From the IMG/VR virus record IMGVR_UViG_3300032050_000606, positions 1 through 29,119 of that record: 29,119 nucleotides of DNA; one strand, 5' to 3'. Every line of letters begins with the position of its first letter. Within the stretch, counting starts at the first letter, position 1. This document shows, piece by piece, positions 9,508 through 24,214 of the stretch. This stretch comes from a virus. The notes below the pieces were generated by a model. It worked only from the letters and a program-made list of their open reading frames with translations. It did not search any database and was not told where the DNA came from. The position numbers were made by a program, and so were the translations under genes.

Positions 9508-10749
9508 TTATTCTTGGTAGAAGTTCTTCTTCACGAAGTTGCGGCTAAAGCCCTTGTCAGTGTCCAAAAGCCATTCGCGTTCGCCGATCAACTCACCCTG
9601 CGGGCCGTTTGGTTGACCTTCTAAAGCCGCCGCCGTTGCTTGACCGATCCATGTCGCCGCCTGGACGGCCACTGCCTTGCCCCACGTGGCCCCAAGAGCC
9701 GAGTAGTTGTTGACACTGACAAATTCCCAATTGTCGGGCAGACCTTGAATTCTAGCGGCTTCTCTGTGCGTGATACGGCGCGGCTGTGTCGGGTGCACGA
9801 TGTGATCAAGAGCACTGCCTGTCATAACGTGACAGAACGAGTTCGCGTCCCAACGAGCCGGAAGCGAGAAACCCATGTAGAAGTCGTTTAGACGAATCTT
9901 CTCTTCCTTGGTGGCCCATGACTGCGGGAACGTGTTGTTGTTCTTCTCGACAGCCTCTTTAAGAGCAACGTTCAGCGCGGCCATAGGCTTCCAACCTTCG
10001 TTACCGAGAATGTCGAAGATCTCTTGGATTCTCTGCGACTCGAGGTTTGTTCTATTCATGTGGCCGTCGACGTAGCCGTCTTCATTTCTTAGATCAGCAA
10101 CAAACTTCGACGGTTCAGCGTTGTACTTCTGTCTGTTCCACGTGATTTCAAGGTTCTCGAGATCTCCGATGACGTCGATCATCTTTGGCATTTCCTTCGG
10201 CATTTCAGCGTGCGCGCCGAAAGGCATACCGCTTTCGACAGCCACCCAGAAGTAGCGCATGCGGTACGAGAATCCACCGACCATTAGATTGTTGTGCTTA
10301 ACGTGATACAGGTCGTATTTCTTACCGGAGAGCTCTTCGAGCATGTCGCGGTATTGATTCATCACGGCTCGGCCTTGCGTATACGCCTGCTGCACGCACT
10401 CAAACACGACCATCTTTGGTTTGATCCGGGCAGCGTACTTCATGAACGCACGCGTGTGCTCGTGGGCCTTAGCGTCGGGGCCACGGTTCGCTGGGCCAGA
10501 CCACAGCGACCAACCAGAGCATGGCGGGCAACCAAGAACAACGTCAGCGCTCGTGTCAGGCCAATCGTTTGGGTCTTCAGAGAAGAACGACGTCCATTGT
10601 TCGCCAAGGTGTTTTCTATTCACCTCGGCAACCGGGTTACCAAAGTTAAGAGTGCCCGTTCGGACCGTCATATCGAGTCCGGATCTCACGAACCCGAGGC
10701 TCATAAAGCCAGCAAGACCGTTGCAGTCAATGAAGGTGGGATTGCTCAT
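9508..10749 (-). CDS. Divergent cytosine-C5 DNA methyltransferase
   Basis: 413 residues. Motif I FIDCNGLAGFMSLGFVRSGL replaces the usual DLFAG-G-G. Motif IV is GCPPCSGWS with catalytic C77 and S81. Motif VI is FECV (E117) in place of ENV. Motif VIII is YRMRYFWVAV. The C-terminal RRITHREAARIQGLPDNWEF and GKAVAVQAA match motifs IX-X. The enzyme should methylate cytosine in DNA from S-adenosylmethionine; recognition sequence unknown. As no restriction enzyme is adjacent, it is an orphan methyltransferase, probably protecting phage DNA. If the phage uses modified cytosine (see the enzyme at 22368), its substrate may be unusual. GAGGA lies before the ATG. Confidence 0.8.
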   Translation of the reverse strand: MSNPTFIDCNGLAGFMSLGFVRSGLDMTVRTGTLNFGNPVAEVNRKHLGEQWTSFFSEDPNDWPDTSADVVLGCPPCSGWSLWSGPANRGPDAKAHEHTRAFMKYAARIKPKMVVFECVQQAYTQGRAVMNQYRDMLEELSGKKYDLYHVKHNNLMVGGFSYRMRYFWVAVESGMPFGAHAEMPKEMPKMIDVIGDLENLEITWNRQKYNAEPSKFVADLRNEDGYVDGHMNRTNLESQRIQEIFDILGNEGWKPMAALNVALKEAVEKNNNTFPQSWATKEEKIRLNDFYMGFSLPARWDANSFCHVMTGSALDHIVHPTQPRRITHREAARIQGLPDNWEFVSVNNYSALGATWGKAVAVQAATWIGQATAAALEGQPNGPQGELIGEREWLLDTDKGFSRNFVKKNFYQE

Positions 10750-10796
10750 TGTTGTTCCTCGTTGTTGTCCAATGCGATGATAAACACTAACACGTA

Positions 10797-11093
10797 TTAC
10801 TTACTGACCTGACCTTTTAGACCGACTTCGTAGCCGCATGCGGCGTACCCTGCAATGTCGGTCCATGTGTCTGGTTGAAACCCTGAGTTGGAAGCATAGC
10901 GAGCGATCTTTACAGCAACCATCGCCATGGCAACGTCCTCGTTAGTGAATTCTCTACCAAAGAGTACGCCCCAGATCTTGGCTATTCTTCCAAAGTTATC
11001 TTCAGGTCCGCCGTATTGAGTGTCTCGTTGCCCAGAAATGATCTTCGCCGCTGTTTCAAGCATCTCCTGCCGAGGACTTTTTTCGTTTTTCAT
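10797..11093 (-). CDS. DUF6378-like small phage protein
   Basis: 98 residues. The sequence contains AAKIISGQRDTQYGGPEDNF followed by GRIAKIWG and ends with TWTDIAGYAACGYEVGL. The D-x-x-Y-G-x-P-E-D-N-F and D-I-A-G-Y-A motifs are those of the conserved phage family annotated DUF6378, whose biochemical role is not established. It overlaps the upstream small gene by four bases (ATGA). Confidence 0.75.
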   Translation of the reverse strand: MKNEKSPRQEMLETAAKIISGQRDTQYGGPEDNFGRIAKIWGVLFGREFTNEDVAMAMVAVKIARYASNSGFQPDTWTDIAGYAACGYEVGLKGQVSK

Positions 11094-11290
11094 GCCTTAG
11101 CTCTCGCGATCAACGTAGCAAGATAGAACTCCGAGTCCGGGTCATCACCAGGCTGAGAAATGTGTATCTCTGAGTCAAACGGAATGACAGCCGACGGGTC
11201 TTGAATGAACTCCGACCACTTACTTGTAAGTGACTCATGAATCTCTTCAAAGGTTCTACCGGTGCACTTCATCTCAATGTTAAGTCTCAT
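11090..11290 (-). CDS. Hypothetical small protein (66 aa)
   Basis: Starts MRLNIEMKCTGRTFEEIHES with a beta strand followed by a helix, then a Pro/Asp-rich loop and an Ala-rich C-terminal helix. I do not recognise the family. It overlaps the DUF6378-like gene by ATGA and lies two bases after the preceding stop, so it is operonic. No membrane or signal sequence. Confidence 0.6.
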   Translation of the reverse strand: MRLNIEMKCTGRTFEEIHESLTSKWSEFIQDPSAVIPFDSEIHISQPGDDPDSEFYLATLIARAKA

Positions 11291-11292
11291 GT

Positions 11293-11493
11293 CTACTCCT
11301 CGTACTCGCTGAGATCTTCGAACTCTGCCTTTATCCCGTAACCGACGCGTTGATACAAAAGACCACCGTCTACAAAAATGCCGGTATCTGAGTCGTCAGG
11401 GCAGACACATCTAACAAAATCGTGCCTATGCACAGACTCAATTACCTTGCCGCACGTTAAACACTTAAGAGCGTTACGAACTAGCTTCGCCAT
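11293..11493 (-). CDS. Small zinc-binding phage protein (DUF7695-like)
   Basis: 66 residues with C11-x2-C14 and C29-x-C31 around the motif IESVHRHDFVRCVC, then FVDGG and a C-terminal FEDLSEYEE. This pattern is familiar from a widespread small zinc-ribbon family in phages and bacteria (DUF7695 as I recall the name). No catalytic residues are evident. It overlaps the upstream gene by 20 bases. Confidence 0.65.
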   Translation of the reverse strand: MAKLVRNALKCLTCGKVIESVHRHDFVRCVCPDDSDTGIFVDGGLLYQRVGYGIKAEFEDLSEYEE

Positions 11494-11863
11494 TTAGAAG
11501 TTTCTCCCTGTCTACAACTTCAAATCCCGGTGGCGCAATAGCTGGACTCAGCGTTCTATACCAGCCTCGCTTCACCATCAACACTCCAGGTTCACCAGAT
11601 ATTTCGCACGTAGACCAGGCCACCTGCTCGTATCGAGCTACTACATCGTTCATCACGCGCCAGTGCTCCGTCTTAGTGTTGAAGTAGTATCTAAGGCCGC
11701 CAAACTTTTCCTTGATCTGCTGTATCGTGTAATCTGGGTCGATCTTCGACAGCTCTACGTCGATCGCGGCGATAATAGCGTGCCACCCCGGCTCACAGTC
11801 AATTCTTCTTGACCAGTCCGGTTCAAATCTTTCAAGAACTGCTGAAAGATCTACGGTGCTCAT
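11474..11863 (-). CDS. Conserved hypothetical protein with QIKEKFGGLRYY motif
   Basis: 129 residues. DCEPGWHAIIAAI followed by QIKEKFGGLRYYF and STCEISGEPG is a pattern I have seen in many phage and bacterial hypothetical proteins with a small alpha/beta domain and an optional Cys pair. The function of that family is not known to me. One base separates it from the preceding gene, indicating co-translation. The stop overlaps the next gene by 20 bases. Confidence 0.65.
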   Translation of the reverse strand: MSTVDLSAVLERFEPDWSRRIDCEPGWHAIIAAIDVELSKIDPDYTIQQIKEKFGGLRYYFNTKTEHWRVMNDVVARYEQVAWSTCEISGEPGVLMVKRGWYRTLSPAIAPPGFEVVDREKLLNGEASS

Positions 11864-11864
11864 G

Positions 11865-12101
11865 CTATATCGCCGCTATCTTCTTCTCTAGTTTGTACGC
11901 TGGGTGTCTAGCAGAGTGTATGTGCGGCGTCTTATAGTCTATCGTGGTCACGTAGATATCGCCGTCCTTGATATCTACAACCTTAACAAGTCGGCCGTTA
12001 TGAAGTCTGCCAGCATCGGTTTTGTATGCGTCTTTTTTCACTCTTAAGACGTCGTCAACGTTCACGTCGAGAGCCGACGCATCTTCCCATAGATCATTCA
12101 T
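11865..12101 (-). CDS. Hypothetical protein (78 aa)
   Basis: I chose the ATG at 12101 because it overlaps the upstream TGA (ATGA), the usual arrangement here; a longer form from 12146 would overlap by 49 bases. The product MNDLWEDASALDVNVDDVLR ends with a beta-rich region (GRLVKVVDIKDGDIYVTTID) like a small SH3-type barrel. No recognised family. Confidence 0.55.
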   Translation of the reverse strand: MNDLWEDASALDVNVDDVLRVKKDAYKTDAGRLHNGRLVKVVDIKDGDIYVTTIDYKTPHIHSARHPAYKLEKKIAAI

Positions 12102-12583
12102 GAACCACCGCCAGTGCTCCGTTGAGGGCAAGACGACTCGAGACACGCGTCCACGTCGTAGTCGTCAAGAGCTCTGAAGCACGCGGTGCACTTGACACCA
12201 CTGTCAAGAACTCGATAGCCGTTCTTTTGTCTATCAGCATTCTTCTGCATCTTAGCAAGATACTCGCGATCAAGCTCATCGTCCGTGGCCCCTGCGGCGC
12301 ACAGGATGTTCGCTACAAAGTGCAGAACATCAACGCATTCCTTGAGGATCTCGTGACGGTCGGCATACGGGTCGTCGTGCTGCCACGGCTTCCATGAGAT
12401 AGCCTTACGCACCTCGGCAAGCTCGTCGTCGATGGCAAGCATATTCCATCGGATGTACTCGATGAGGGTTCTTAGGTCGTCATGCTCGTCGCTATGGAAC
12501 GACGCGTAGTCGACGTTGTACACATCCGTCTGTAGTTGACGTGTCTTTTCCAGCCATTTACCAAATAGCACGTTGTCTGCCAT
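12098..12583 (-). CDS. All-alpha dUTPase/dCTPase-like NTP pyrophosphohydrolase
   Basis: 161 residues. ELAEVRKAISWKPW (E54, E57) and EILKECVDVLHFVANIL (E82, D85) form the paired acidic motifs of the MazG/dimeric-dUTPase superfamily, followed by KMQKNADRQKNGY. It would hydrolyse dUTP, and possibly dCTP as I recall for T4 gp56 of the same superfamily, releasing the monophosphate and PPi. A C-terminal extension of about 30 residues with C132, C135, C147 and C152 looks like a zinc knuckle and is unusual. It overlaps the glycosyltransferase gene upstream by 26 bases and fits a nucleotide-pool role alongside the dCMP enzymes further along. Confidence 0.75.
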   Translation of the reverse strand: MADNVLFGKWLEKTRQLQTDVYNVDYASFHSDEHDDLRTLIEYIRWNMLAIDDELAEVRKAISWKPWQHDDPYADRHEILKECVDVLHFVANILCAAGATDDELDREYLAKMQKNADRQKNGYRVLDSGVKCTACFRALDDYDVDACLESSCPQRSTGGGS

Positions 12584-13592
12584 GACCTAATCCATTCTTC
12601 AGTGTCTGTAGTGCGTCTTGCCTGCTGGCAAGAGCGGCGATGTATCTTTTGCGTTGGTCTACGGAAAGTTCGTAGATGTCAACGTAATCCATTTCCTCTA
12701 CGTTTGCCGGCAGTAACGACCACGAATCTCCAAGAATGGACGTAATTTTCCAGTCACTTACCACCGGCGTGTCGTTGTTTAGAGCTTGCGACATTCTGTA
12801 GCTCCACCACAGCGTCCCGTCGTCTTGCGGACTGACGATCGCGCCTGATGAGCGTACTATTAGTTTTTCTACGTCTGAGTCTGTCGACAGTCTGTTGCTT
12901 TTCATCTCAACGACCTCGTGGCCAAGGGTATTTTTAAGTGACCTAAACCATTTTGCCTTTGAGTTGTCGACGGTCCAATACCCACCACGCGCCTTAGGCA
13001 CCGTGTTCAACTCGGTGTTAAGAAGAAATGAGTCGATCTGAACACCTTGGACTACGTCACGCGTCGCGCCGAATAATTGGCTTTCAACGTTTTCATTAGA
13101 GGTGAACGGCGTCGACGGGTACAGCGTTGTGTAGACCCAACCTGTCGCCAGCGCCTGTGCGCCTGCGATCACCGATGCCATGATCTTACGGTTGCCTGCA
13201 ACGTCGGCATATTGTTTTCTAGCCGCGTAGAAAGGCTTGACGATGTCTTCGGGCTTTCTATCTATAGCACGAAGGCTTGCCGCGATCTTCGCCGGTTCCG
13301 GCGCGTCAACAAATAGTGCAAGACTGCCGTCGTCCTTCAACAGGTTGATCATGTGAAGAACGCCGTACGCCTTGTTTGCAGTAAGACTTAGCATCGGAGC
13401 GACGCCAAGTAGAACGTGGTCGTACTGATCTAGGTCACTTTTCTTCAGTAGAACGCTCGGTTCTATGAAGTGAACAGCGACACCGCTGTCCTTTAGTTCG
13501 GACGCGACAACGCCTATGAAGCTTGCCTTGCTATGGAATGATCGGTACGACGACTGCGACGCGGTCATACCTGAGATAGCGATTGACTTCAT
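12558..13592 (-). CDS. GT-B-like glycosyltransferase, copy 2
   Basis: 344 residues from the ATG at 13592, which overlaps the previous TGA. N-terminal half: strand MKSIAISGMTASQ then YDHVLLGVAPMLSL (about 57-70). C-terminal half: SSGAIVSPQDDGT, LWWSYRMSQALNNDTPVVS (about 248-279). These match, in order and spacing, the same places in the neighbouring protein (YDVIWVNLGPLNSL; GILSPPYPHAGCGWW), so the two genes are tandem paralogues. A two-Rossmann, GT-B-type fold is likely, with the donor site in the C-terminal half. The acceptor is unknown; modified DNA is proposed from context. Confidence 0.6.
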   Translation of the reverse strand: MKSIAISGMTASQSSYRSFHSKASFIGVVASELKDSGVAVHFIEPSVLLKKSDLDQYDHVLLGVAPMLSLTANKAYGVLHMINLLKDDGSLALFVDAPEPAKIAASLRAIDRKPEDIVKPFYAARKQYADVAGNRKIMASVIAGAQALATGWVYTTLYPSTPFTSNENVESQLFGATRDVVQGVQIDSFLLNTELNTVPKARGGYWTVDNSKAKWFRSLKNTLGHEVVEMKSNRLSTDSDVEKLIVRSSGAIVSPQDDGTLWWSYRMSQALNNDTPVVSDWKITSILGDSWSLLPANVEEMDYVDIYELSVDQRKRYIAALASRQDALQTLKNGLGHGRQRAIW

Positions 13593-14800
13593 CACCTGCT
13601 ACCGTCTGGGTTTATCCTCAGTCCCTTGTCTTCATTCAACGCACGGTGCACGATCCTATTGCAGTGTTCAACAAACGAATCATACGTGGGCATGTGAGCA
13701 CGCAAGGCATCGGATTGCGCGTTAGCAGCGCCGGCAAGATCGTCGTCGGACATCGACTCAACCTGCTTGATCGTCAACGAGTACGGTGCGCCAAGCGGCT
13801 TGCCTTCACCCTTGTCGGTGACAAGAATTGACTTTACACGAGCGGCGTACATGAACCGGCTTCTCCACCAACCGCAGCCAGCGTGCGGGTACGGCGGAGA
13901 AAGAATGCCCCAATGTTCGTTGTAGAACGAAAGCACGTCTTCCTCTGTGTCAAAACGCTGTCCGCCAAACTTTCTGATGAGTTTGCGGCTACCGACGATC
14001 TCTACAGGCCATTCAGGGTTTTTCTTTTCGAGCCACGTGTCGTGCGGGACGAGGGCCCCAAGAACCCACGCCTTCTTCTTTTCAGACGGCGGCATCGGAA
14101 TAGCTGACGACAGAATATTGAAGATCGTTGAGCTCGGGTCTAGCGCTTCGATCCCTGCCATTTCAGCAGGCATTCTCTTTCGCACTAGTGACCTGTCGCC
14201 GAATGAATACATCGGGCACACTGGTACAAGCCCGTGTGACCAGCGCTCACCGAGAAGAGCCTGGGCGGTTTGTACCAATTGGCCTTCGTGCGCCTTGATG
14301 TTATCGTCATTGTCGTTGAAGAAGTATCTACCGACAGCACACTTCTTTGCGGCGTCGGGATTAGCAGCAACGATTCTTTCTAGTGCAGCGTCGGCTTCTG
14401 CCTTTGAGAAGTAAGTGGCGTCTTCAGAACCTCGCAGCGCCGAACCAGACAAGAGATACTTGTACAGAATCTCTGGGTGACGGACTAGCGAGCGGCACGC
14501 GTTGAACACGGCTGAAAACTGCCAGTCGTCAAAGAAACCAACAGCCGGGATACCAGAGCTAAGAGCGTACAGCGCGCCCATAGCGCCCTGTCGGCCGTTA
14601 AGAGAGTTTAGTGGGCCGAGGTTTACCCAGATCACGTCATATGACGATAGATCTTCACCTGGCGTGACGCGTCGCCAATCAACCTGATGGCCAACGCTTT
14701 CGAGAGCTTCGACGATCGACGCTGGCACGTCGATCTTTTTGATTGTTCTATGCTCTGTGTTGATCTGAAGAGCAGTGAACCCTGTCATTAAAATCTTCAT
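13592..14800 (-). CDS. GT-B-like glycosyltransferase, copy 1
   Basis: 402 residues. It opens with MKILMTGFTALQIN, a first Rossmann strand, and YDVIWVNLGPLNSL at 54-67. The C-terminal half has the strand WVLGALVPHDTW, then VEIVGSRKLIRKFGG and GILSPPYPHAGCGWW (298-312) followed by RSRFMYAARVKSILVTD. The succession of a per-strand GS/GP site and an acid- and Arg-rich donor helix fits GT-B enzymes such as phage DNA glucosyltransferases, but no clear nucleotide-sugar motif identifies the donor. AAAGGA lies before the ATG, and a strong RNA hairpin sits just upstream. Paralogue of the gene at 12558. Confidence 0.6.
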   Translation of the reverse strand: MKILMTGFTALQINTEHRTIKKIDVPASIVEALESVGHQVDWRRVTPGEDLSSYDVIWVNLGPLNSLNGRQGAMGALYALSSGIPAVGFFDDWQFSAVFNACRSLVRHPEILYKYLLSGSALRGSEDATYFSKAEADAALERIVAANPDAAKKCAVGRYFFNDNDDNIKAHEGQLVQTAQALLGERWSHGLVPVCPMYSFGDRSLVRKRMPAEMAGIEALDPSSTIFNILSSAIPMPPSEKKKAWVLGALVPHDTWLEKKNPEWPVEIVGSRKLIRKFGGQRFDTEEDVLSFYNEHWGILSPPYPHAGCGWWRSRFMYAARVKSILVTDKGEGKPLGAPYSLTIKQVESMSDDDLAGAANAQSDALRAHMPTYDSFVEHCNRIVHRALNEDKGLRINPDGSR

Positions 14801-14825
14801 TGATTCATCCTTTGTGTGATGCTCA

Positions 14826-14865
14826 AGTGGCCGCCCACGACACCTTCGTATCGCGGGCGACCACT
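14826..14865 (-). terminator. Strong 15-bp hairpin between SSB and glycosyltransferase genes
   Basis: Arms 14826-14840 and 14851-14865 pair over 15 positions with a 10-base loop. In the minus-strand RNA, two of the pairs are G-U, which would be A-C mismatches in the opposite strand, so the structure belongs to the minus transcript. It begins 17 bases past the SSB stop. There is no U-run after the stem, so it may be an attenuator, an RNA-processing or stabilising element rather than a classical intrinsic terminator. Confidence 0.6.
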
Positions 14866-14881
14866 AGAGAACAGCGGCTCG

Positions 14882-15469
14882 TCAGAACGGAGCGGCCGGC
14901 GGTGTCTGTGTCTGAACCTCGGCGGCGACGGGAGCCGGGGCGGCTTCCGGAGCAGGAGCCGGAGCGGGCGCTGCAACTGGTGCAGGCGCCGGGGCAGGTG
15001 CCGGAGCGGGCGCGGGGGCCGGTGCCGGAGCTGCAGCCATCGGCGGAACAGGAGCGGACGCTGTCGGGATCGAGTAGTACGTCTTGATCTCGTTCTTCTT
15101 CTGTCCCTGCCAGGTGCGGCTACCAACCTGCGCGCGGAAGCTACGACCCTTGAGGGTCTGCTCGATCTGTGCGTTGGTCGGATTGGTCGCGAAGTAGTCC
15201 TTGCCGAGACCGAGCGCGTTCATCTTACGGAAGAAGATTCCGAGCGCGTTCGGGTTGTCGGTCGAGACCACCAGGTTGTCCCACACGAGACGCTTTGCGT
15301 GCGCCCCTGTCGTGACCTGCGCCTTGACGGCGAACATCGTCTTGCCGGTCTGAGTGGCCTTAGCCTGTGCCTCGACGATCACGAGGTCGTAGTCGCCGTC
15401 GGGCAGCGGGTCGTACCCACCGACGTCACCTGCCTCCTTGACGAGGTCACCCCAATTAAGTGTGCTCAT
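14882..15469 (-). CDS. DUF669-like single-stranded DNA-binding protein
   Basis: 195 residues. The N-terminal 130 residues (NWGDLVKEAGDVGGYDPLPD, GDYDLVIVEAQAKATQTGK, then FFRKMNALGLGKDYF) match the DUF669 family of phage proteins regarded as ssDNA-binding, OB-fold-like. Residues about 140-185 are a Pro-Ala tail (PAPAPAPAP...) followed by a short acidic/hydrophobic end, like the flexible tails of SSBs. It sits directly upstream of the Sak4-like ATPase in the usual phage recombination order. AGGT precedes the ATG. The tail is encoded by GC-rich imperfect repeats, which also create long spurious ORFs on the other strand. Confidence 0.75.
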   Translation of the reverse strand: MSTLNWGDLVKEAGDVGGYDPLPDGDYDLVIVEAQAKATQTGKTMFAVKAQVTTGAHAKRLVWDNLVVSTDNPNALGIFFRKMNALGLGKDYFATNPTNAQIEQTLKGRSFRAQVGSRTWQGQKKNEIKTYYSIPTASAPVPPMAAAPAPAPAPAPAPAPAPAPVAAPAPAPAPEAAPAPVAAEVQTQTPPAAPF

Positions 15470-15497
15470 TGTGTTTACCTATGTCTTTCTGTGTTGG

Positions 15498-16259
15498 TTA
15501 CTTTGCTTGCTGATCCGGACGAGGTCCGAAAACGATATCGAGCATTCGTTCGACGCTGAGGTCGCCTTGCTCGACGATCTTACCGAGGCGGCCTTGAACG
15601 CGCTCGCCGGCCTCGTACTGGTTGGTGCGCTCGACGTACATACGGCGAGCTTTGTAGGGTCCTTGTGTCGGGTCCGGATTGTTGAACTCTTCGACGTTGA
15701 TAGCGCCGAGGATGTCGTAGAAATACGGAGCCTGAATTGCAAGTTGACCCTGAAGGTACGGACGGTAACGCCCGTCCTGACCTTGACGCGCCATAGCTGT
15801 CAGCACGACGGCTTCCAGCGGATTGGTGGCGTGCATTGTCAGGTCGCGAAGATCGCGAAGCAACGCGCCCATGTGGCGAAGAAGTTCGCCCCACTGTTGC
15901 ATCTGCATCTGATTTGTTCCCGCGATGTTGTCCATGCACTTGACCTGCAACTCAGAAACCGAGTCGATGATCAATGATTTGAACTGATGGCGTCCGATCT
16001 GAAGCCACTGGTACGCCTTGAGAACCGTATCGTACTCGGTGACGTTGACAACGCAGGTGTCCCACGTTCCGTCAGCCGCAGGCGGCTCCTCGCGCAACGG
16101 GTCCCAGTACTTGACGTTGATAGGTAGGAACCTGTGCCCACCTTCAACGTCAAGCATTAGACGCGGGTATGGTGCGGTGACTGCAAACGTCGACTTTCCG
16201 ACCTTTGATTCACCATACACCATGAGGGTAAGCGATCGCTGTACTCCACTCATGGTCAT
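15498..16259 (-). CDS. Sak4-like RecA-fold ATPase (AAA_24)
   Basis: 253 residues. Walker A GESKVGKST (16-24), Walker B SLIIDSVSEL (D99), and a polar Gln-rich segment (TNQMQMQQWGELLRHM) typical of the AAA_24/Sak4 group of phage single-strand annealing proteins. These ATPases act with the cognate SSB in recombination and replication. ATGA overlaps with the RecB-like gene; 28 bases separate it from the SSB gene. Family function is known for homologues; activity here is inferred. Confidence 0.85.
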   Translation of the reverse strand: MTMSGVQRSLTLMVYGESKVGKSTFAVTAPYPRLMLDVEGGHRFLPINVKYWDPLREEPPAADGTWDTCVVNVTEYDTVLKAYQWLQIGRHQFKSLIIDSVSELQVKCMDNIAGTNQMQMQQWGELLRHMGALLRDLRDLTMHATNPLEAVVLTAMARQGQDGRYRPYLQGQLAIQAPYFYDILGAINVEEFNNPDPTQGPYKARRMYVERTNQYEAGERVQGRLGKIVEQGDLSVERMLDIVFGPRPDQQAK

Positions 16260-17215
16260 TCACTTCCTTTCATCTCTGTTGATTCGTAATACTTATACGG
16301 ATCGCCTTGCGTATACAGCTCAGCGATCGCGTGCTCTGCAGCGCTACCGTCGTCAAACAACGGGCACACTGCAAAGAACTGGCACTTCCATTTGCAATCA
16401 CGGCTTGGCCGAGGGTATGCAACAAAGTGATGATCTTGTCCTTCGTCCAATGCGTCTCGCACCGCGAGCATGTCGCCTACGGTACCATGAATTCTGTTCC
16501 AAAACGCTCTCAACGCAAAGGTGTTGTGTCGAACCTCGATCTGATCGTAGAACGGCGGCTTTGCGTTGGCGGTGCGCTTGACCTTTTTCAGCATCGTAAA
16601 GATGCCACCTTCACTGCGCTCGCCTTCCTTGTTCTGCGCCGCCTCAAGAAGCATGTATGTCAAGATCTGCTCGTTCATGTGCGCTAGTGCAGCGAACTCG
16701 GTGAATGATCCGCCAACAGTCTTGAAGTCGCGGAACATGCGAACACCATCTGCCTTACGGCGAACACGCATGTCAAGTTTACCTTGAAGTTCTACCCTGC
16801 CTTCAAACATAGGCATGGTGATGATTTCTTCTGTCGAGATCATCTCAAGATCAGCGTCGATACCGTTTTCGTTGACCCAGTCAAGGTAACCCTCGAGCAT
16901 GATTCTGCCGAGTTCGGCTTCTGTCTCGAGTTCCATGGTGTCACGGAAGCTTTCCATGAGCGCCTTCTTGTCGAGCTGTACGAAGTGAGCGTACGCCTCG
17001 AGCAATGGAGTACCAGTCGAGTAGTACATGTCAAGCGCAGAGTGAACTCGCGAACCGAGCGCAAGAGCGCCGGTGAAGTTTTGCGTCTGCGGCTGAAGTC
17101 TGCGGTAGTAGTTTAGCCACCACTTTCTTCTGCAGTCTTTGAATGTCTGAATCTCTGAGTTGGAGATTCTCAGTGGCTCGCGGCGGAGCTCAACCGGAGT
17201 TTCGTTGATTGTCAC
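16256..17215 (-). CDS. RecB/Cas4-like PD-(D/E)XK nuclease with Fe-S cysteines
   Basis: 319 residues from a GTG start that overlaps the helicase stop (GTGA). Active-site residues: H58 (GSRVHSALD), D150 (GKLDMRVR), D165-x-K167 (FRDFKTV) and Q185. Cysteines C28 near the N-terminus and C276, C280 and C286 (CKWKCQFFAVC) match the Fe-S site of the Cas4/AddB/RecB exonuclease family. Likely a 5'-3' or recombination exonuclease working with the Sak4-like ATPase and SSB. Length is normal for phage members. Confidence 0.85.
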   Translation of the reverse strand: MTINETPVELRREPLRISNSEIQTFKDCRRKWWLNYYRRLQPQTQNFTGALALGSRVHSALDMYYSTGTPLLEAYAHFVQLDKKALMESFRDTMELETEAELGRIMLEGYLDWVNENGIDADLEMISTEEIITMPMFEGRVELQGKLDMRVRRKADGVRMFRDFKTVGGSFTEFAALAHMNEQILTYMLLEAAQNKEGERSEGGIFTMLKKVKRTANAKPPFYDQIEVRHNTFALRAFWNRIHGTVGDMLAVRDALDEGQDHHFVAYPRPSRDCKWKCQFFAVCPLFDDGSAAEHAIAELYTQGDPYKYYESTEMKGSE

Positions 17216-19014
17216 AGTGATCCTGTCTTGTCGTCTCTCAACATCTTGAGAAGTTGGTCTTTGTCTCGTACGATTTGCTCGAAGTTGTCGGCCTTGGTAT
17301 CTAGAACCTGAATAACGCGCTCCTCGATCGTCCCGTCAGTGACGTAGTCGGTGATCACGATGGAGTCGTGGATCTCGCTACCGATTCTGTGCACGCGGTC
17401 AAGAGCCTGTTTGTAATCGACAAGTGACCACGGACGCTGAAGCATGATGAGTCTGCGAGCCGCTGTCAATGTAACGCCGACACCTCCGGCTTGCGCCGTG
17501 AAAAGAATCCACTTGATTCTTCCATTCTGAAAATCATCGATAGCCTTTTGGCGCTCTTCTTCTGTTTGTGCACCAGTGATTAGTCCGTGCGGGATCTTTG
17601 CTTTCTCAAGGCGGGCGCTGAGAAGTTCGATGAGCTGACGTGATACGGCGCAGACGGCAACCGAGTCATCTCCAAAGTCGCCAGCGTCGATGTCGTCCAT
17701 CAACGCGTCAACCTTGCACGATGGCTCTGACAGTTTGACGGCGATCTCGCCCGTAAACTCGTCTACGTCAACCATAGCGTATGAACTGGCAAACTGTAGC
17801 AGACGCGTCGCCTGCGTAAGAGGGCTTGGAGCAGTTAGCGCCTCGCCACCTTCCAACTGCGCGATCATGACGTCACGCATTTGCTCGTACGCCTTTTTCT
17901 GCTTTGTAGACATTTCTACGTCGCGACGTTCCTTGATCACTGGCGGCAACCACGGTAGCACCTTTGCCTTAAGCATTCTGCGCATCCGTGGGTTGATAGC
18001 CGCGTAGAACTCATCGTGCATATGCGGCTTGACGCCTAGCACCATCATTCCACCAAACGCGTTCAACATAGTGTCAACCATGCGATCGATCCAGCGCGTC
18101 TTGCTAGGCCATTCATTTGGCGACAGCCAATGCAGAATCGGCCATAGGTCTAGAACGTTGTTAGCGATCGGTGTTCCTGTCAGCGCAAAGCGAATGTCAG
18201 CTTTTCCTGTGGCCGCCCACAGCGCGCGTGTCTGCTTGCTCTTCGGTTCCTTTGAACGGTGAATCTCATCGGCGACAACGGCCTTGAAGTCGATCTTGTT
18301 TAGTTCACGCACGTGAACCTCACAGCGATTTTCCGAGACCTTTTCATCGTGGCCGCCGCATTCAACACAGCGCGCCAACGCAACGGACCCGTAACTAGCA
18401 AGACGTGAGTGCGTGCGCAACGACTCCCAGTTGATGACGTATACATCAACGTTTTCTTCGGCAAATTGTTTACGTCGCTGTGTCGCTGATCCGCTGATGA
18501 CCTGGACGTTTACACCAGGCCACCACATTCCAAACTCGCGTCTCCAGTTCTTCTTGAGCGTGTTAGGGCACACGATGAGCGCTGGGAATACGTCTTCGCC
18601 TCTGTCTTTTAGTTCCTTCAACGCGCGAATTGTTTGCGCTGTCTTACCAAGGCCTGGCTCGTCGGCAAGCAATGCGCGACGGGCAGCGGCAAGAAACTTT
18701 ACTCCAGCGCGCTGGTGAGGGAACAACGCCTCGTCGCCGTCTGCTGTCTCAAGTTCGCGCAGTTCGTTGCAGGGCGTCACTCGTGTGTTGAGTTCGGTTG
18801 TAGCCCACTCGGCAAGTCTTGGTCCGATGCGCAGCTCAGTCTTGAAGACCGATCGCAGTGCAAGGCATGTTGACCAGCCGAGCGGCGCCCGCCACGCCTT
18901 GTCGGCTGCAGACCAGGTCGCACCCGGGATCCCCTTGCATAATTCTTTGTATCGCCATTCGGTCTCGATACGGATGTGTTCACCCGAATCATTAAGCTCT
19001 ACATCAACTGGCAC
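17212..19014 (-). CDS. SNF2-family DNA helicase/translocase
   Basis: 600 residues from a GTG start with GAGGTG upstream. An N-terminal HARP-like segment (about 1-90: IRIETEWRYKELCKGIPGAT then WSAADKAWRAP) precedes motif I DEPGLGKT (118-125), motif Ia, motif II DEIH (249-252) and motif III LTGTPIANN. Motifs IV-VI include FTAQAGGVGVTLTAA and QALDRVHRIGS. A short zinc-binding insertion, C216-x2-C219 and C231-x2-H234, lies before motif II. Such SMARCAL1-like enzymes anneal or remodel forked DNA. Operonic with the RecB-like nuclease. Confidence 0.9.
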   Translation of the reverse strand: MPVDVELNDSGEHIRIETEWRYKELCKGIPGATWSAADKAWRAPLGWSTCLALRSVFKTELRIGPRLAEWATTELNTRVTPCNELRELETADGDEALFPHQRAGVKFLAAARRALLADEPGLGKTAQTIRALKELKDRGEDVFPALIVCPNTLKKNWRREFGMWWPGVNVQVISGSATQRRKQFAEENVDVYVINWESLRTHSRLASYGSVALARCVECGGHDEKVSENRCEVHVRELNKIDFKAVVADEIHRSKEPKSKQTRALWAATGKADIRFALTGTPIANNVLDLWPILHWLSPNEWPSKTRWIDRMVDTMLNAFGGMMVLGVKPHMHDEFYAAINPRMRRMLKAKVLPWLPPVIKERRDVEMSTKQKKAYEQMRDVMIAQLEGGEALTAPSPLTQATRLLQFASSYAMVDVDEFTGEIAVKLSEPSCKVDALMDDIDAGDFGDDSVAVCAVSRQLIELLSARLEKAKIPHGLITGAQTEEERQKAIDDFQNGRIKWILFTAQAGGVGVTLTAARRLIMLQRPWSLVDYKQALDRVHRIGSEIHDSIVITDYVTDGTIEERVIQVLDTKADNFEQIVRDKDQLLKMLRDDKTGSL

Positions 19015-19051
19015 TCAACACCTCTTGTCGTTCGTTATCTGTCACTGTATC

Positions 19052-19100
19052 ACATACTAAGCGGAAATGTCTTCACGCATGCAATTTTTTCTTAGTATGT
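19052..19100. promoter_or_regulatory. 10-bp perfect inverted repeat in the resolvase-helicase gap
   Basis: ACATACTAAG (19052-19061) and CTTAGTATGT (19091-19100) are perfect inverted arms around 29 bases that include the palindrome GCATGC. The right arm begins immediately after the resolvase stop codon. The 86-base gap is one of the longest in the window. Arms are AT-rich and the loop long, so it looks more like an operator or promoter region for the helicase operon than a terminator. Confidence 0.4.
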
Positions 19101-19565
19101 TCACTCAAGGAGCCGCAATGGCGCCCAACCGATCTTCACTAGACGCAGAAGACCGTGGCGTATCGCGTCCAGCGCGTGACCTTCTCCACCACGATGCCAA
19201 AGGTCGAGTTTCTTCAGTGCGCTGTTGTCAAACATCTTCTTAGCGTCAGACGGTGACTGAAACAGCAAAGTACCAGGGTCAATGTCGTTGCTGAGCATCA
19301 GATACTTTAAGATGCCGATCTGCTCGAGGCTAAACGGCGCCTGAGAATTTTTTACCGTCTGAGCGTTAATTGTGAACCTCTCACAGACGATATCTAACTG
19401 TGCGCCAGCCAGTTTGGCTGTGCTAATGGCCCCAAGAATCGGAGTATGGTATTCTTCCATAAGAAACTCGCCGGAGGCCAAGAGGCGCGGTTCTAGGCCG
19501 CTCTCATAGGAAATCAAAGCGACGCCGCTCTTCTTTCCAGGGTCAACAGCCAAAATAAACCTCAT
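19101..19565 (-). CDS. RuvC-like Holliday junction resolvase
   Basis: 154 residues from the ATG at 19565, which overlaps the upstream TGA (ATGA); a longer ORF adds 16 poorly conserved residues. Catalytic acids: D8 (FILAVDPGKKSGVAL), E62 (IVCERF) and D133 (GHALDAIRHGLL), the RuvC/RNase H-fold arrangement. It would resolve branched DNA formed during replication and recombination, or debranch DNA before packaging. The next gene on the strand is the SNF2 helicase, after the inverted-repeat gap. Confidence 0.85.
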   Translation of the reverse strand: MRFILAVDPGKKSGVALISYESGLEPRLLASGEFLMEEYHTPILGAISTAKLAGAQLDIVCERFTINAQTVKNSQAPFSLEQIGILKYLMLSNDIDPGTLLFQSPSDAKKMFDNSALKKLDLWHRGGEGHALDAIRHGLLRLVKIGWAPLRLLE

Positions 19566-19882
19566 GTCCACACCACCCTTGCCACCTTCGACCTTAACAG
19601 TATACTTTCGCACTTCTTACACGGCTTCGACGGAGCCGGAGACCCATCTGCGGCTATTCTGGCAATATAGACGTTCGACCCGACCGCAAGAGAACCTGCG
19701 GCGGTGATAGCAGCAAATTCGGCATGAACATGAGATGTTCGCCACGCCGTCGCTGGGTCACCGATCTTCTTATTCGTCGACGTCGAAACGATCCGCCCGT
19801 CACGAACAACCACACAACCGTGCTTATGTCTGCACTTGCTCTTCGAGGCGACCCCTAGAGCCATTTCAAGGTATCGGTTCAT
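19562..19882 (-). CDS. Cytidine/deoxycytidylate deaminase-family protein
   Basis: 106 residues. Zinc site H53-A-E55 (SHVHAEFAAI) and C88-x2-C91 (PCKKC), with the preceding CVVVRDGRIVSTSTNKK strand-turn-strand. This is the minimal deaminase fold; substrate (dCMP, cytidine, or another amino-pyrimidine) cannot be told. It is distinct from the longer dCMP deaminase at 21698. Start overlaps the polymerase stop (TGATG), and its own stop overlaps the resolvase start. Confidence 0.75.
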   Translation of the reverse strand: MNRYLEMALGVASKSKCRHKHGCVVVRDGRIVSTSTNKKIGDPATAWRTSHVHAEFAAITAAGSLAVGSNVYIARIAADGSPAPSKPCKKCESILLRSKVARVVWT

Positions 19883-21705
19883 CAGTACTTGTCACCCCAT
19901 GTCTCAAGCGGGCCATCAACGTCAGCGGTAAGCGGCACTGCCCAACCGTCGGTTGTTGTCATACACTGTCTAACAAGTTGCTTGATCTCCTCAGCATCTT
20001 CTCGAGGGGCCTGCAGCACGATCTCGTCGTGCACCGGGACGATCAACATTTCTGTCAGATCTGCTTGGTCGAGCTTTACAAGATTCGACTTAAAAACCTC
20101 TGCAGCTCCACCTTGAATGAGATAGTTGACAAGCGTGTAGACTCTTCCTTCGTCGCACGGCAATCTGCGACCAGTCCACGTGTAGACGTAGCCTTGGCCT
20201 TCCGACTTGAGTCTTCGCATCCCGATGTCTTCTATCTGTCTCTGGAAGTATGACATTCCCGGGAATCTGTTGTCGAACGCGTCAGATGTTTGCTTCATTT
20301 GAATCTCAGCAACGCCGGCTGTCAACGCTTGCTTAGCAACGCCAGCGCCGTACAGGCGACCGTAGATCATGCTCTTGATCAGACCACGACGCTTGTCTGA
20401 TTTCTGCATCCCCGGATCGTTGTAGACCTCACGACCAATCTCGGTGAACGGGTCGGACCCTGTCGCATCGGCAAGATGAAACAGATTGATGAGGTTGGTG
20501 TCATTCGACAGACTCGCAAACATACGGAACTCGACCTGGTCAAGGTCGCTCGTGATAATCACATGATCATCGTCCTTAGGGATGAAGGCGCGGCGCACAA
20601 CATCGTCGCCCTTAGGCAACGTTTGTAGCGCCGGGTTTGTGATCGACATACGAGAAGTACGAGCACCGAGAGTTTTCACCGATGGGTGAACGATGCCGTC
20701 AATAGACTCTGTAAGAAAATTAGAGAAGTACGTGCCAGCAAGTTTGTCAGCTTTGCGCTGTTTAAGAACGGTGTCAGCAAGAGTAGACACTTCAGCATTT
20801 CCGTCACGAGCAAGGATCTTCAACTGGTCCTTAGTGCATGACTTCTGACCTGTAGGCGTGAACTCGGTGATCTCTGCGCCAAGTGACTCAAACAGGCGGA
20901 CCAACTGAACGTTGCTCGTAATAGACACTCCGCCATACGTGTCCTTCGCCCACTTCTTGACAGATTCAGTGTACGCTGTAAGTTCATCGTACTTTCTCTG
21001 TGAGTAGTCAAGATCAACTCGTGCACCGTTGATTTCCATGCGCGTCACGATCTTGCGTGTCGCCATCTCAAGCTCGTACGCGCGCTGATACGGACCGTCA
21101 GGCCCGCACTGCTTATAGAACATCTCCCACAGACGAGTTGTCAAAACGCAGTCAAGAGCGCCGTACGACCAGTATGGCGTAAAGTTAGTGGGAACCGTCC
21201 CCCACGTCCACCCGTTCTTAACTAGTTCAGTGTCGAGTGTCTCTTGTAGAGCAACTGCGCGACTGTCGATGTGAAGAGCGGCAAGACGCTTTAGAGCGCC
21301 AGACCCAAGCGGGTCAACAACGTGTGCCATAATCATCGTGTCGTGTGCACGATGCCACGGAATATCCCATCGGGACTGAACATCAAACCAGCGCGCCTCG
21401 AACGCGATGTTATGGCAGATCAACGGACCGTCAAACTTGTCCATTGCCTCGTAGAAAACGCCCGACCACTCGTCCCACGGGATCGACCAGCCCTGCTCAC
21501 CATCACCAACCTGCACGAGACGAAGACGGCCGTGCCACGGCGACAGTGCGTGATCTCTTGGGTTTCCGGGCAGCTCACCGGTTTCAGTGTCTACCGAGAT
21601 AGCGTTGTACGGTCTTCTCTGCCCAAGCCAGTGCAGAAAATCCTGTGCCTTCTGCACGTTGTCAACAAGGTGCAGTTGCACATTTGAAAGGTCGTTGTCA
21701 CTCAA
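19882..21705 (-). CDS. polA: T7-type DNA polymerase A with 3'-5' exonuclease
   Basis: 607 residues. Exonuclease motifs: D39-x-E41 (SVDTETG), N99-D108 (CHNIAFEARWFD) and Y181-x3-D185 (YGALD). Polymerase motifs: A SDLDQVEFRMFA (D387, E392); B R440-x3-K444-x3-Y448 (YGRLYGAG); C VHDE (559-561). There is no 5'-3' exonuclease domain, so it is the phage replicative form. Tyr448 is the equivalent of E. coli PolI Phe762 and T7 Tyr526. Translation starts at TTG with AAGGA eight bases upstream, overlapping the dCMP deaminase stop by eight bases. Main replicase of this phage. Confidence 0.93.
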   Translation of the reverse strand: MSDNDLSNVQLHLVDNVQKAQDFLHWLGQRRPYNAISVDTETGELPGNPRDHALSPWHGRLRLVQVGDGEQGWSIPWDEWSGVFYEAMDKFDGPLICHNIAFEARWFDVQSRWDIPWHRAHDTMIMAHVVDPLGSGALKRLAALHIDSRAVALQETLDTELVKNGWTWGTVPTNFTPYWSYGALDCVLTTRLWEMFYKQCGPDGPYQRAYELEMATRKIVTRMEINGARVDLDYSQRKYDELTAYTESVKKWAKDTYGGVSITSNVQLVRLFESLGAEITEFTPTGQKSCTKDQLKILARDGNAEVSTLADTVLKQRKADKLAGTYFSNFLTESIDGIVHPSVKTLGARTSRMSITNPALQTLPKGDDVVRRAFIPKDDDHVIITSDLDQVEFRMFASLSNDTNLINLFHLADATGSDPFTEIGREVYNDPGMQKSDKRRGLIKSMIYGRLYGAGVAKQALTAGVAEIQMKQTSDAFDNRFPGMSYFQRQIEDIGMRRLKSEGQGYVYTWTGRRLPCDEGRVYTLVNYLIQGGAAEVFKSNLVKLDQADLTEMLIVPVHDEIVLQAPREDAEEIKQLVRQCMTTTDGWAVPLTADVDGPLETWGDKY

Positions 21706-22180
21706 CGTCGTCGTCCTTAACTACTGTTAGTTCGATCTTACACTTCTTTAGATACTCAAACACGTCGTACGGTCTACGATGTAGATCGGCAGAACGCAGT
21801 CTGCATACGACGCGCGCAAGACCAGAGTTTGTTATCAACTTAGCGCACTGCATGCACGGAGCGCTCGTCACGTAGAGTGTCCCACCGGCGACACTCGAGC
21901 GGTCTACATATAGCAACGCGTTTGCCTCAGCGTGAATCGCTGGGCAAGCATCATACATATTGTCTAGCGGGGCTTCACCTCTTGCTCGAGGGCACCACAG
22001 ACTGCACGTACCTTGTTCAGGCCAATCAGCCGCAGGGCCGTTGTAACCTGTTGCGCAGATTCTTTGCTCGCTAGAAACAATCACGGCGCCTAACTGCGCG
22101 CGCGAGCATCGAGATCTAAGCCCAATAGTTTCGGCTACTGCAAGCCATGTCTCATCCCAAGAAGGTCTTGTATCGTCCAT
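21698..22180 (-). CDS. dCMP deaminase
   Basis: 160 residues from the ATG at 22180, overlapping the previous TGA. Zinc ligands H84-A-E86 (AIHAEANALLY) and C110-x2-C113 (APCMQCAKLI). The upstream insertion TGYNGPAADWPEQGTC with another Cys pair is typical of deoxycytidylate deaminases, which form dUMP from dCMP and are allosterically controlled by dCTP. It lies between the polymerase and the TS-like genes and shares substrate with the dCMP-type enzyme at 22368. Confidence 0.85.
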   Translation of the reverse strand: MDDTRPSWDETWLAVAETIGLRSRCSRAQLGAVIVSSEQRICATGYNGPAADWPEQGTCSLWCPRARGEAPLDNMYDACPAIHAEANALLYVDRSSVAGGTLYVTSAPCMQCAKLITNSGLARVVCRLRSADLHRRPYDVFEYLKKCKIELTVVKDDDVE

Positions 22181-22368
22181 CAATCTTCGTCATCTTCGTC
22201 GTCTTCTATCGAGGCTTCTGCAATGCCTGTGATTAGCATCTTGGCGATAAGCTCAAGACCGTCCCGTCTGGAGAATCCGGCTTCACGCAAGGTGAGGTAC
22301 ATTTCGTGCATACTCACCGCGGCTTCCTTCATCGGTGAAGAGTATTCGTCATCCCAATCGCCACTCAT
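22180..22368 (-). CDS. Small acidic protein in TS-deaminase operon (62 aa)
   Basis: ATG at 22368 overlaps the TS-like stop (TGATG) and the TGA overlaps the deaminase start. Product MSGDWDDEYSSPMKEAAVS with a central amphipathic segment SMHEMYLTLREAGFSRRDGL and a fully acidic tail SIEDDEDDED. This helix-turn-helix-like central piece followed by an acidic tail recurs in short actinobacterial phage proteins. Role unknown. Confidence 0.65.
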   Translation of the reverse strand: MSGDWDDEYSSPMKEAAVSMHEMYLTLREAGFSRRDGLELIAKMLITGIAEASIEDDEDDED

Positions 22369-23228
22369 CACGCCTCTTTTCTTTTGTTCTTTTCGATCGC
22401 TGTGATCATGGCACTAGCATACCACCGCTCCTGCGAAGAAAGAGAGTCCAACAAACTGTGATCTTTTACAGAGTTCAGGATCGCTATTGCCGAGTCTTTG
22501 ACTTCATCCCACGTATCACCGTAGATAGGCGGCACTGCTTCAACCTTGTCGGTTTTCTTAAGGTTGTTCGCGGCCGCGTAGTTTGACTCGTAAATGTGCA
22601 AAGACCCAACATGATGAGCGTATGCGCCAGGCTCAACGCCAAGCACGCTACACATCGCGAGTTGAACCCTCGTAAACTGGAAGAAGTCATACGCTGCTCC
22701 TAGCCACACGTCGTTCGATCGCATGTACACGCTCATGTTTAGTTTGTTGTCTCTGATTCTAAACTGATGGAGGACAGTGCACGGGTAGTCTCTCTTACCT
22801 TCTTGGTTGTCGTACTCTGGGTTCCAGATGGTGACAACAGCCTGCCGTGTGTCGCGATCGTTCTTCAGTTTCTCGATCGCGTAGTCGTACTGGCCATTGG
22901 TTCTGCGACCGTACGCGCCGTGGAATATCCCATTGTCCTCGGCATAGTTCTTAAACTGCGGGCCGACGGCAATGACTGTCTCTGGCGTGCTTACACCGCC
23001 AAGAAGTTGGCAAGCCTCAACGGCACCGATGCCGGGGACAGTGCCACGGCCGACGCCGATCGGCAGAGCGGCGAAGATATCATCGATGTAGATAACTGCG
23101 TCTTCTATTTCAAGCGTATTGAATCCTCGCGGCGCGGCAGGCTTCCCGTGGCGCAGCACGTGATTGACAAGATCAACGTAGCCGTTGACGCCATCTTCGA
23201 TATGAATAAGCTTTACGGAAGTATCCAA
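22368..23228 (-). CDS. Thymidylate-synthase homologue, probable dCMP (hydroxy)methylase
   Basis: 286 residues, ThyA fold. Catalytic C150 (DYPCTVLHQF), phosphate-binding R125 and R128 (NDRDTRQAVVTIWNP), and H211-x-Y213 (SLHIYESN) for the sugar. At the base-recognition position, corresponding to E. coli TS Asn177 (in LPFNIASY), the sequence here is RSNDVWLGAAYDFFQF: the residue is Asp181. This Asn-to-Asp change is the hallmark of dCMP-using relatives such as T4 dCMP hydroxymethylase. It therefore probably makes 5-hydroxymethyl- or 5-methyl-dCMP rather than dTMP. It starts at TTG with GAAAGG eight bases upstream and overlaps the kinase gene by 16 bases. Confidence 0.8.
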   Translation of the reverse strand: MDTSVKLIHIEDGVNGYVDLVNHVLRHGKPAAPRGFNTLEIEDAVIYIDDIFAALPIGVGRGTVPGIGAVEACQLLGGVSTPETVIAVGPQFKNYAEDNGIFHGAYGRRTNGQYDYAIEKLKNDRDTRQAVVTIWNPEYDNQEGKRDYPCTVLHQFRIRDNKLNMSVYMRSNDVWLGAAYDFFQFTRVQLAMCSVLGVEPGAYAHHVGSLHIYESNYAAANNLKKTDKVEAVPPIYGDTWDEVKDSAIAILNSVKDHSLLDSLSSQERWYASAMITAIEKNKRKEA

Positions 23229-24214
23229 TGTGTGTACCTTTCATCTCTGTTATAGGCGAAGCTCATGATCGCCTGGCCGTACTCAAAACGATCATCGTGA
23301 TGGAATCTTCTGACGTATTGCGGGTGTGGAAGAACTACGTATCGCTCTTCTTCTAGGCCGCACTGGCGAACTTTCTTTTCAGCTAATCTGCCAAGAACAA
23401 CTATCCTCGGCCCACCGAGCACATCAAGCAGATCATGCAACGAGTTTTCGTCAAAGTCATCTGAGTTGATGATTCCGCATGAGCGCCAGCCAAGCTCCGG
23501 CAAAGAAGACAGCAGATAGTCTCCAGAGTTGCCGTTGACAGGCATGAATGGGAGAATAGTCTCGGTAGGGTCTTTTCTCTTGTCGCCGATTAGAAGAACG
23601 TTCGGGTGTCTAGGGCCGATGTACATCGGAAACTTAGAAAGCGGTTTCGCTGCCATAGACTTCTTCGTGGCAGCGTCGATTATCACGTCGGCGGCGTATT
23701 TAACATATTTTTCGCCTTGAGGTACGGTAACCTTCAGCTCTACGTTGTACGCTTTGTTGTAGCCAAACTCATATCTATCAAGAATACCGGCAAGCTCGTG
23801 CGCATCTACAAAATCGTCGCCGCGGCTATTGATCCGTTCAGTGATGACCTCGAGAGGCTGATACACCCAGCACTGCGTCACTCCACGAGACTCGAGAAAC
23901 AGCTCCACCCAACGCCAGCCGGCAACGCCAAGAAGACCGTACTCGTCCTTGCACGTCTCGGGTCGCTTCGTGGGTGCGTACGTTACCTCGCCCCAGTGCC
24001 ATCTGTCAGACACGGCAATCTCGTCTGTCCAGTCAATGTTCTCGATATCAACGGCATACTCGTGCAGCACCCAGCGACGCGTAAGTTCTTCAGGCTTGCC
24101 TTTGTGAAACTCCCGCACCTCAGTACGTGGGTTTGCTAACCGTAGCTGTTGCTTAATCTCGGCAGCAAGAGTACTTTTACCAGAAGCGTCTGCGCCTTCC
24201 AAAACTATAAACAT
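23213..24214 (-). CDS. Nucleotide kinase fused to UDG-like domain
   Basis: 333 residues in two domains. Residues 1-185: P-loop dNMP kinase of thymidylate-kinase type, Walker A GADASGKST (7-15), D70-R71 (SDRW), LID RINSRGDDF (127-135). Residues 195-320: a domain with HPNVLLIGDKRKDP, LPFMPVNGNSGDYLLSSL, IVVLGRLAEKK and PHPQYVRRF. The G-D/E...P-F-x-x-x-G-x-S-G start and terminal H-P-x-Y motif recall the uracil-DNA glycosylase superfamily. The kinase would phosphorylate the monophosphate made by the adjacent TS-like enzyme. The second domain may bind or inspect bases; this is inference. AAAGGA precedes the ATG. Confidence 0.75.
   Translation of the reverse strand: MFIVLEGADASGKSTLAAEIKQQLRLANPRTEVREFHKGKPEELTRRWVLHEYAVDIENIDWTDEIAVSDRWHWGEVTYAPTKRPETCKDEYGLLGVAGWRWVELFLESRGVTQCWVYQPLEVITERINSRGDDFVDAHELAGILDRYEFGYNKAYNVELKVTVPQGEKYVKYAADVIIDAATKKSMAAKPLSKFPMYIGPRHPNVLLIGDKRKDPTETILPFMPVNGNSGDYLLSSLPELGWRSCGIINSDDFDENSLHDLLDVLGGPRIVVLGRLAEKKVRQCGLEEERYVVLPHPQYVRRFHHDDRFEYGQAIMSFAYNRDERYTHWILP

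Follow-up and report, generated by a model that had tools for sequence, protein, structure and literature searches.

Gene block for predicted cytosine hypermodification

We identified a gene block in an actinophage that probably encodes a T4-like cytosine hypermodification system, combining dCMP hydroxymethylation, dCTP removal, replication and DNA glycosylation. The first-pass annotation had proposed that cytosine is hydroxymethylated as a nucleotide and then glycosylated in DNA, and this is supported by the base-specifying Asp and the folate-site residues of a thymidylate synthase homologue, by a homologue of T4 gp56, and by a transferase (GT1) whose predicted glycosyltransferase fold resembles T4 BGT. 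The conservation of the gene order in deep lineages and the occurrence of the GT1 family in T4-like phages that bear gp42 and lack AGT and BGT point the same way.

The window (the whole stretch of DNA analysed, 29,119 bases of an IMG/VR virus record) is a piece of a freshwater actinobacterial virus. A WhiB gene marks it as an actinophage, and so does the closest relative, Actinomycetia phage DSL-LC01, a Dishui Lake virus that matches 36% of the query at 76% identity. A minus-strand gene set at 9508-24214 holds every candidate of the first-pass annotation, and all seven ORFs named there were present, most of them overlapping or abutting. In the direction of transcription (from 24 to 8 kb), the order is kinase, thymidylate synthase homologue, dCMP deaminase, PolA, small deaminase, RuvC, SNF2 helicase, Cas4-like nuclease, RecA-like ATPase, DUF669, GT1, GT2, gp56-like hydrolase, small genes, C5-methyltransferase, Pyr_excise, and WhiB. 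UDP-galactopyranose mutase, found in some relatives, is abbreviated as UGM. The main features are as follows:

22368-23228, minus strand: thymidylate synthase homologue (TS), predicted dCMP hydroxymethylase (Pfam Thymidylat_synt, 1e-22; phrog_5131, 1e-42)
12098-12583, minus strand: all-alpha NTP pyrophosphohydrolase, predicted dCTPase/dUTPase related to T4 gp56 (Pfam dUTPase_2, E 8e-12; tblastn to T4 gp56)
13592-14800, minus strand: GT1, GT-B glycosyltransferase, predicted DNA glycosyltransferase (phrog_14998; structural model with T4 BGT as best PDB match)
12558-13595, minus strand: GT2, predicted second GT-B glycosyltransferase, paralogue of GT1 (hhalign 100%, E 5.5e-42; structural model)
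23213-24214, minus strand: P-loop (d)NMP-kinase-like domain with a degenerate UDG-like C-terminal domain (phrog_761, 4e-14)
21698-22183, minus strand: dCMP deaminase (Pfam, 1e-18; phrog_174, 3e-41)
9508-10749, minus strand: C5-cytosine DNA methyltransferase with intact catalytic motifs (conserved companion of the set)
19882-21705, minus strand: PolA-type DNA polymerase, a syntenic neighbour (Pfam DNA_pol_A, 2e-54)
19562-19882, minus strand: second, small cytidine/dCMP-deaminase-like protein, seen in fewer than half of the relatives

Four of these features are new relative to the first-pass annotation, namely the paralogy of GT1 and GT2, the UDG-like domain of the kinase, the small deaminase, and the C5-methyltransferase. 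The small deaminase gene overlaps the RuvC gene. Pyr_excise (8921-9433), a pyrimidine-dimer DNA glycosylase conserved within the block, is a functional parallel of T4 DenV.

In the proposed pathway, the TS homologue would add a hydroxymethyl group from methylene-tetrahydrofolate onto dCMP, and the gp56-like hydrolase would clear dCTP (and dUTP), so that unmodified cytosine is excluded. The putative product, hydroxymethyl-dCMP, would be the presumed substrate of the P-loop kinase, which together with host NDP kinase would bring it to the triphosphate for incorporation into DNA by the polymerase. GT1, joined by GT2 in the window lineage and acting with it in a presumed order, would then attach one or two sugars from a putative nucleotide-sugar donor to the hydroxymethyl groups of DNA, the presumed acceptor. 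If this is right, T4-style cytosine hypermodification would exist in a large group of freshwater and soil actinophages and in isolated Gordonia phages. Genome protection by glycosylation has been suggested for isolated Nanopelagicales phages with glycosyltransferases and, in passing, for Gordonia phage GMA2; no paper describing the gene set as a hydroxymethylcytosine pathway was found in the open-licence literature.

Conservation of the gene set across viruses

Co-occurrence of the pathway genes across related phages had been set beforehand as a check, and the companions of GT1 were found in all loci on long-enough contigs, namely GT2 (60/60), the dCTPase-like gene (62/62), TS (42/42), kinase (40/40), and C5-methyltransferase (47/47); these counts are of IMG/VR loci, some of which come from one contig and are hence not independent. 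TS, GT1, hydrolase, and C5-methyltransferase occurred together in 46 loci. The conservation is far beyond chance, and in the near IMG/VR relatives the set could be a single inherited backbone. The order GT1-(UGM)-(GT2)-dCTPase-C5-methyltransferase is broadly kept at 20-40% identity in Gordonia phages (GMA2, Sixama, and GodonK) and in soil contigs, persisting in contigs L197-L204, several of which have GT1 and no separate GT2; the G+C content of the two that were measured is 65-67%. A tryptophan halogenase gene adjoins a glycosyltransferase in DSL-LC01 (L001, 30222-31793).

Beyond actinophages, GT1 relatives were detected in T4-like phages of Aeromonas, Erwinia, Morganella, and Providencia. Seven non-actinophages (FBB1, Aeromonas 25, AS-gz, 60AhydR15PP, Rgz1, PSTRCR_121, and ctIqW946) all possess both GT1 and an Asp-type TS homologue, and T4 AGT or BGT was found in none of the seven. 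All six T4-like phages tested among those with GT1 relatives encode gp42-like enzymes, and none of the six encodes AGT or BGT. If the proposed function is right, it would explain how T4-like phages of Aeromonas, Erwinia, and Morganella with gp42 and without AGT/BGT might finish the modification. The cyanophage-like C48C1 carries GT1 and UGM, with no TS homologue found, and in a Vibrio phage that matches GT1 in part only one TS homologue was found, which is td-like by Pfam score. This suggests that GT1 may act on another acceptor in some phages.

Two transferases of an uncharacterised family

GT1 and GT2 gave no usable Pfam or NCBIfam match, the one sub-threshold Pfam match of GT2 being spurious, and among PHROG profiles GT1 matches only phrog_14998, an uncharacterised family. 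The two proteins are paralogues (hhalign probability 100, E 5.5e-42), and both were modelled with confidence (pLDDT 90.2 and pTM 0.88 each). When the GT1 model was compared with 350,542 PDB chains by Foldseek, T4 BGT took ranks 1-4 and T4 AGT rank 6, with T4 BGT 1qkj as the best match (E 2e-6, TM 0.54 by target). The GT2 model is also GT-B-like, with PDB matches that are remote. The GT-B-like character assigned to both ORFs in the first pass is thus borne out by the predicted structures and Foldseek. Asp92 of GT1, in the motif FFDDWQF, is placed like the catalytic Asp100 of BGT in LFTDIRLPF, according to a pattern read by eye rather than a computed superposition.

Sequence methods gave no link between GT1 and T4 AGT, T4 BGT, or RB69 ORF003c, so that homology to these proteins at the sequence level was rejected, in support of the early remark that the transferases are unlike the T4 pair. 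A PDB sequence search with the GT1 and GT2 profiles returned nothing relevant, and no distant GT1 relatives came up when the Sixama copy was used for a scan. Taken with the models, this suggests that GT1 resembles those families in its working and lies outside them. We therefore regard GT1 and GT2 as predicted DNA glycosyltransferases of an uncharacterised family, and phrog_14998 would thereby gain a function. As this sugar-attaching family, unlike that of T4, is uncharacterised, there seems to be a second and unrelated version of a known anti-restriction strategy.

Possible sugar donors

UGM adjoins GT1 in Aeromonas 25, AS-gz, FBB1, C48C1, DSL-LC01, and several contigs (L071, L184-L188, L195, and L198) and is absent from the window and most of its near relatives. 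In Morganella phage Rgz1, the GT1 relative sits in an RB69-type arabinose cluster, next to genes for arabinose-5-phosphate isomerase and a sugar nucleotidyltransferase; a Pfam search found neither type of gene among the window ORFs. The UGM or arabinose genes beside GT1 suggest that the phages make their own donors, perhaps furanoses, and so point to furanose sugars in some relatives, and the donor in the window lineage may be a host sugar nucleotide. A possible but doubtful extension is that GT1 and its paralogue form a phage DNA glycosyltransferase family, widespread but so far unrecognised, that uses furanose donors, which would place galactofuranose on hydroxymethylcytosine in the UGM-adjacent relatives, arabinose in Rgz1-like phages, and a disaccharide where GT1 and GT2 are paired. 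To our knowledge, galactofuranose is known in no DNA.

In actinobacteria, UGM acts in the cell wall, and the authors of DSL-LC01 read the phage gene in this way and took the methyltransferase as an anti-restriction gene (PMC10611076); if the proposed pathway is right, it would suggest that the phage-borne UGM serves DNA rather than the cell wall. The cell-wall reading of UGM belongs to a broader alternative, which we consider unlikely, that the transferases modify virion proteins or the glycans of the host cell wall and lie near nucleotide genes by synteny only. The presence of GT1 and UGM in C48C1 in the absence of a TS homologue agrees with it, as does a family 2 (GT-A) glycosyltransferase in the window (7028-7858) adjoining collagen-like tail genes, which more likely serves virion glycoproteins rather than DNA. 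However, the best structural matches of GT1 are DNA glucosyltransferases, its family recurs in gp42-bearing T4-like phages without AGT/BGT and in Rgz1 lies within the RB69-type sugar cluster, and the transferase genes overlap the dCTPase-like gene in an order that lasts over great divergence.

The thymidylate synthase homologue as a predicted dCMP-type enzyme

In thymidylate synthases, the residue corresponding to E. coli ThyA Asn177 decides between uracil and cytosine, and T4 dCMP hydroxymethylase (gp42) has Asp at this site. In the alignment, the window TS has Asp181 (in YMRSNDVWLGAAYDFFQFT) at the site of ThyA Asn177 and T4 gp42 Asp179, and its catalytic nucleophile is Cys150. Of the 69 rows aligned, 65 carry Asp here; the remaining four are the SPO1 dUMP-hydroxymethylase (twice, Asn), a ThyX sequence serving as control, and a contig whose reading frame is garbled. 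The control split was exact, since in T4-like phages of Aeromonas, Erwinia, and Morganella that carry both kinds the td-type synthases have Asn and the gp42 homologues have Asp; for Rgz1 gp33, the pairwise alignment is ambiguous at the base site and the multiple alignment gives Asp. The folate-site residues (ThyA E58, D169, G173, and Y209) are present in both the window TS and T4 gp42. The best PDB match is the CMP 5-hydroxymethylase MilA (E 5e-17), which has the same Asp. In the tree, the window TS stands apart from gp42 and groups with SPO1-type enzymes with weak support. The base-site Asp together with the kept folate site makes a folate-dependent, dCMP-type enzyme the best prediction from sequence, in agreement with the dCMP-type homologue first suggested for this ORF.

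The base-site Asp is also compatible with a dCMP methylase, and according to a second alternative the TS homologue makes 5-methyl-dCMP for a 5mC genome, as in Xanthomonas phage XP12, with the transferases acting elsewhere. A single change from Asn to Asp (N229D) in the L. casei enzyme reportedly suffices for thymidylate synthase to methylate dCMP, and the intact folate site would suit this reaction. Nevertheless, we consider this reading very unlikely, because 5mC has no hydroxyl group that could take a sugar, yet GT1 accompanies TS in every long-enough relative, and the closest PDB match is a hydroxymethylase. Moreover, the window TS has Phe/Tyr where ThyA has its Trp80/Trp83 pair, and T4 gp42 and SPO1 gp29 also differ from ThyA at one or both of these positions. 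The residues that may favour attack by water over attack by hydride are suggestive only. Hydroxylation of 5mC within DNA does not appear to be the route either, since none of 21 relatives gave a TET/JBP match above the Pfam cut-off (one, G017, gave sub-threshold matches), the window itself being a fragment; a TET/JBP-dependent route was thus rejected.

TS-family enzymes of RB69-like phages can also make 5-hydroxy-dCMP (PMC13390438), and a third alternative is that the TS homologue does so here, the sugar being joined by an ether linkage as in RB69/Mosigvirus. Work cited in PMC13390438 reports glycosylated 5-hydroxycytosine from diverse viruses, and the GT1 relative in the arabinose cluster of Rgz1 would fit such a product. 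However, in RB69 ORF048c and Rgz1 gp33 the four folate-site residues are lost, with F, N, V, and F in place of E58, D169, G173, and Y209, whereas the window TS keeps them all, which argues against the RB69-type route and leaves it less probable again. The least probable alternative is ordinary dTMP supply with unrelated glycosyltransferases and no modified base, for although TS, dCMP deaminase, dUTPase, and kinase are common phage genes of dTTP supply, the base-specifying site holds Asp, not Asn, across the clade, and GMA2 and one long IMG/VR contig additionally encode a separate ThyX, which makes the TS homologue dispensable for dTMP there.

The C5-methyltransferase

The C5-methyltransferase, an invariant companion found wherever its place is visible (47/47; for example in L001, L003, L007, and L197-L204), keeps its catalytic residues in 46 sequences. 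This fits the proposed pathway poorly, because an intact C5-methyltransferase has no substrate if all cytosine is replaced and cannot methylate hydroxymethylcytosine. Its presence in the set makes complete replacement of cytosine less certain; replacement may be partial, or the enzyme may protect early DNA or have a different role. In contig L198, the C5-methyltransferase frame (12160-14268, 703 aa) has a second region resembling another methyltransferase domain.

Hydrolase, deaminase, kinase, and polymerase

The ORF at 12098 had been described as an all-alpha dUTPase/dCTPase-like hydrolase, and besides its dUTPase_2 match it proved to be a sequence relative of T4 gp56, which it finds by tblastn (E 8e-9, 28% over 136 aa) and with which it has the metal-site pattern IDDE..WK.W..E..D...N..K..N..RQ in common. 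The dCMP deaminase at 21698 is clear from its Pfam and phrog_174 matches.

For the proposed dNMP kinase, a thymidylate-kinase-like P-loop protein is indeed present, with YorR of SPbeta as its best PDB relative, but hhalign detected no relation to T4 gp1, so that its role is given by position only. Its C-terminal domain (about 130 residues) resembles a uracil-DNA glycosylase by a sub-threshold Pfam match and is degenerate; it is kept in contigs L197-L203 and is not evident in the Gordonia phages. The polymerase at 19882 is present as a PolA-type enzyme, but it is not specific to the pathway, and PolA was therefore rejected as one of the pathway steps.

Comparison with known modification systems

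Like T4, which uses gp42, gp56, gp1, cd, AGT, and BGT, the window encodes a dCMP-type TS with an intact folate site, a gp56-related hydrolase, a dCMP deaminase, and GT-B transferases, of which GT1 is nearest to BGT among solved structures. It differs from T4 in that the transferases are unrelated by sequence, the kinase is no relative of gp1, the polymerase is of the PolA type rather than family B, and the TS does not group with gp42; the C5-methyltransferase is always present in the window-type set, and UGM occurs in some relatives. The RB69/Mosigvirus 5-arabinosyl-(hydroxy)cytosine system likewise combines a TS-superfamily enzyme bearing the base-site Asp with a glycosyltransferase, and the arabinose cluster of Rgz1 holds a GT1 relative. 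However, the window TS keeps its folate site, no sugar-precursor genes were seen in the window fragment, and GT1 is unrelated by sequence to ORF003c, the proposed arabinosyltransferase.

Gordonia phages GMA2, Sixama, and GodonK as well as DSL-LC01 possess the same genes in nearly the same order, but these are annotated as thymidylate synthase, hypothetical protein, glycosyltransferase, or cell-wall UGM. The cytosine-pentose system of Shewanella phage Thanatos also includes a TS-like gene, a dCTPase, a dCMP deaminase, and glycosyltransferase-type genes; it differs in using an RB69-type bifunctional sugar protein, and sugar activation has been shown for TH1_063 (PMC12838424).

Outside the block, the window encodes a DUF5122 beta-propeller repeat protein (4272-6656, 794 aa) that adjoins an Mtd_N domain protein and collagen-like genes. 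With about 39-41% G+C against 51% for the window, this region is likely an acquired tail or adhesin module.
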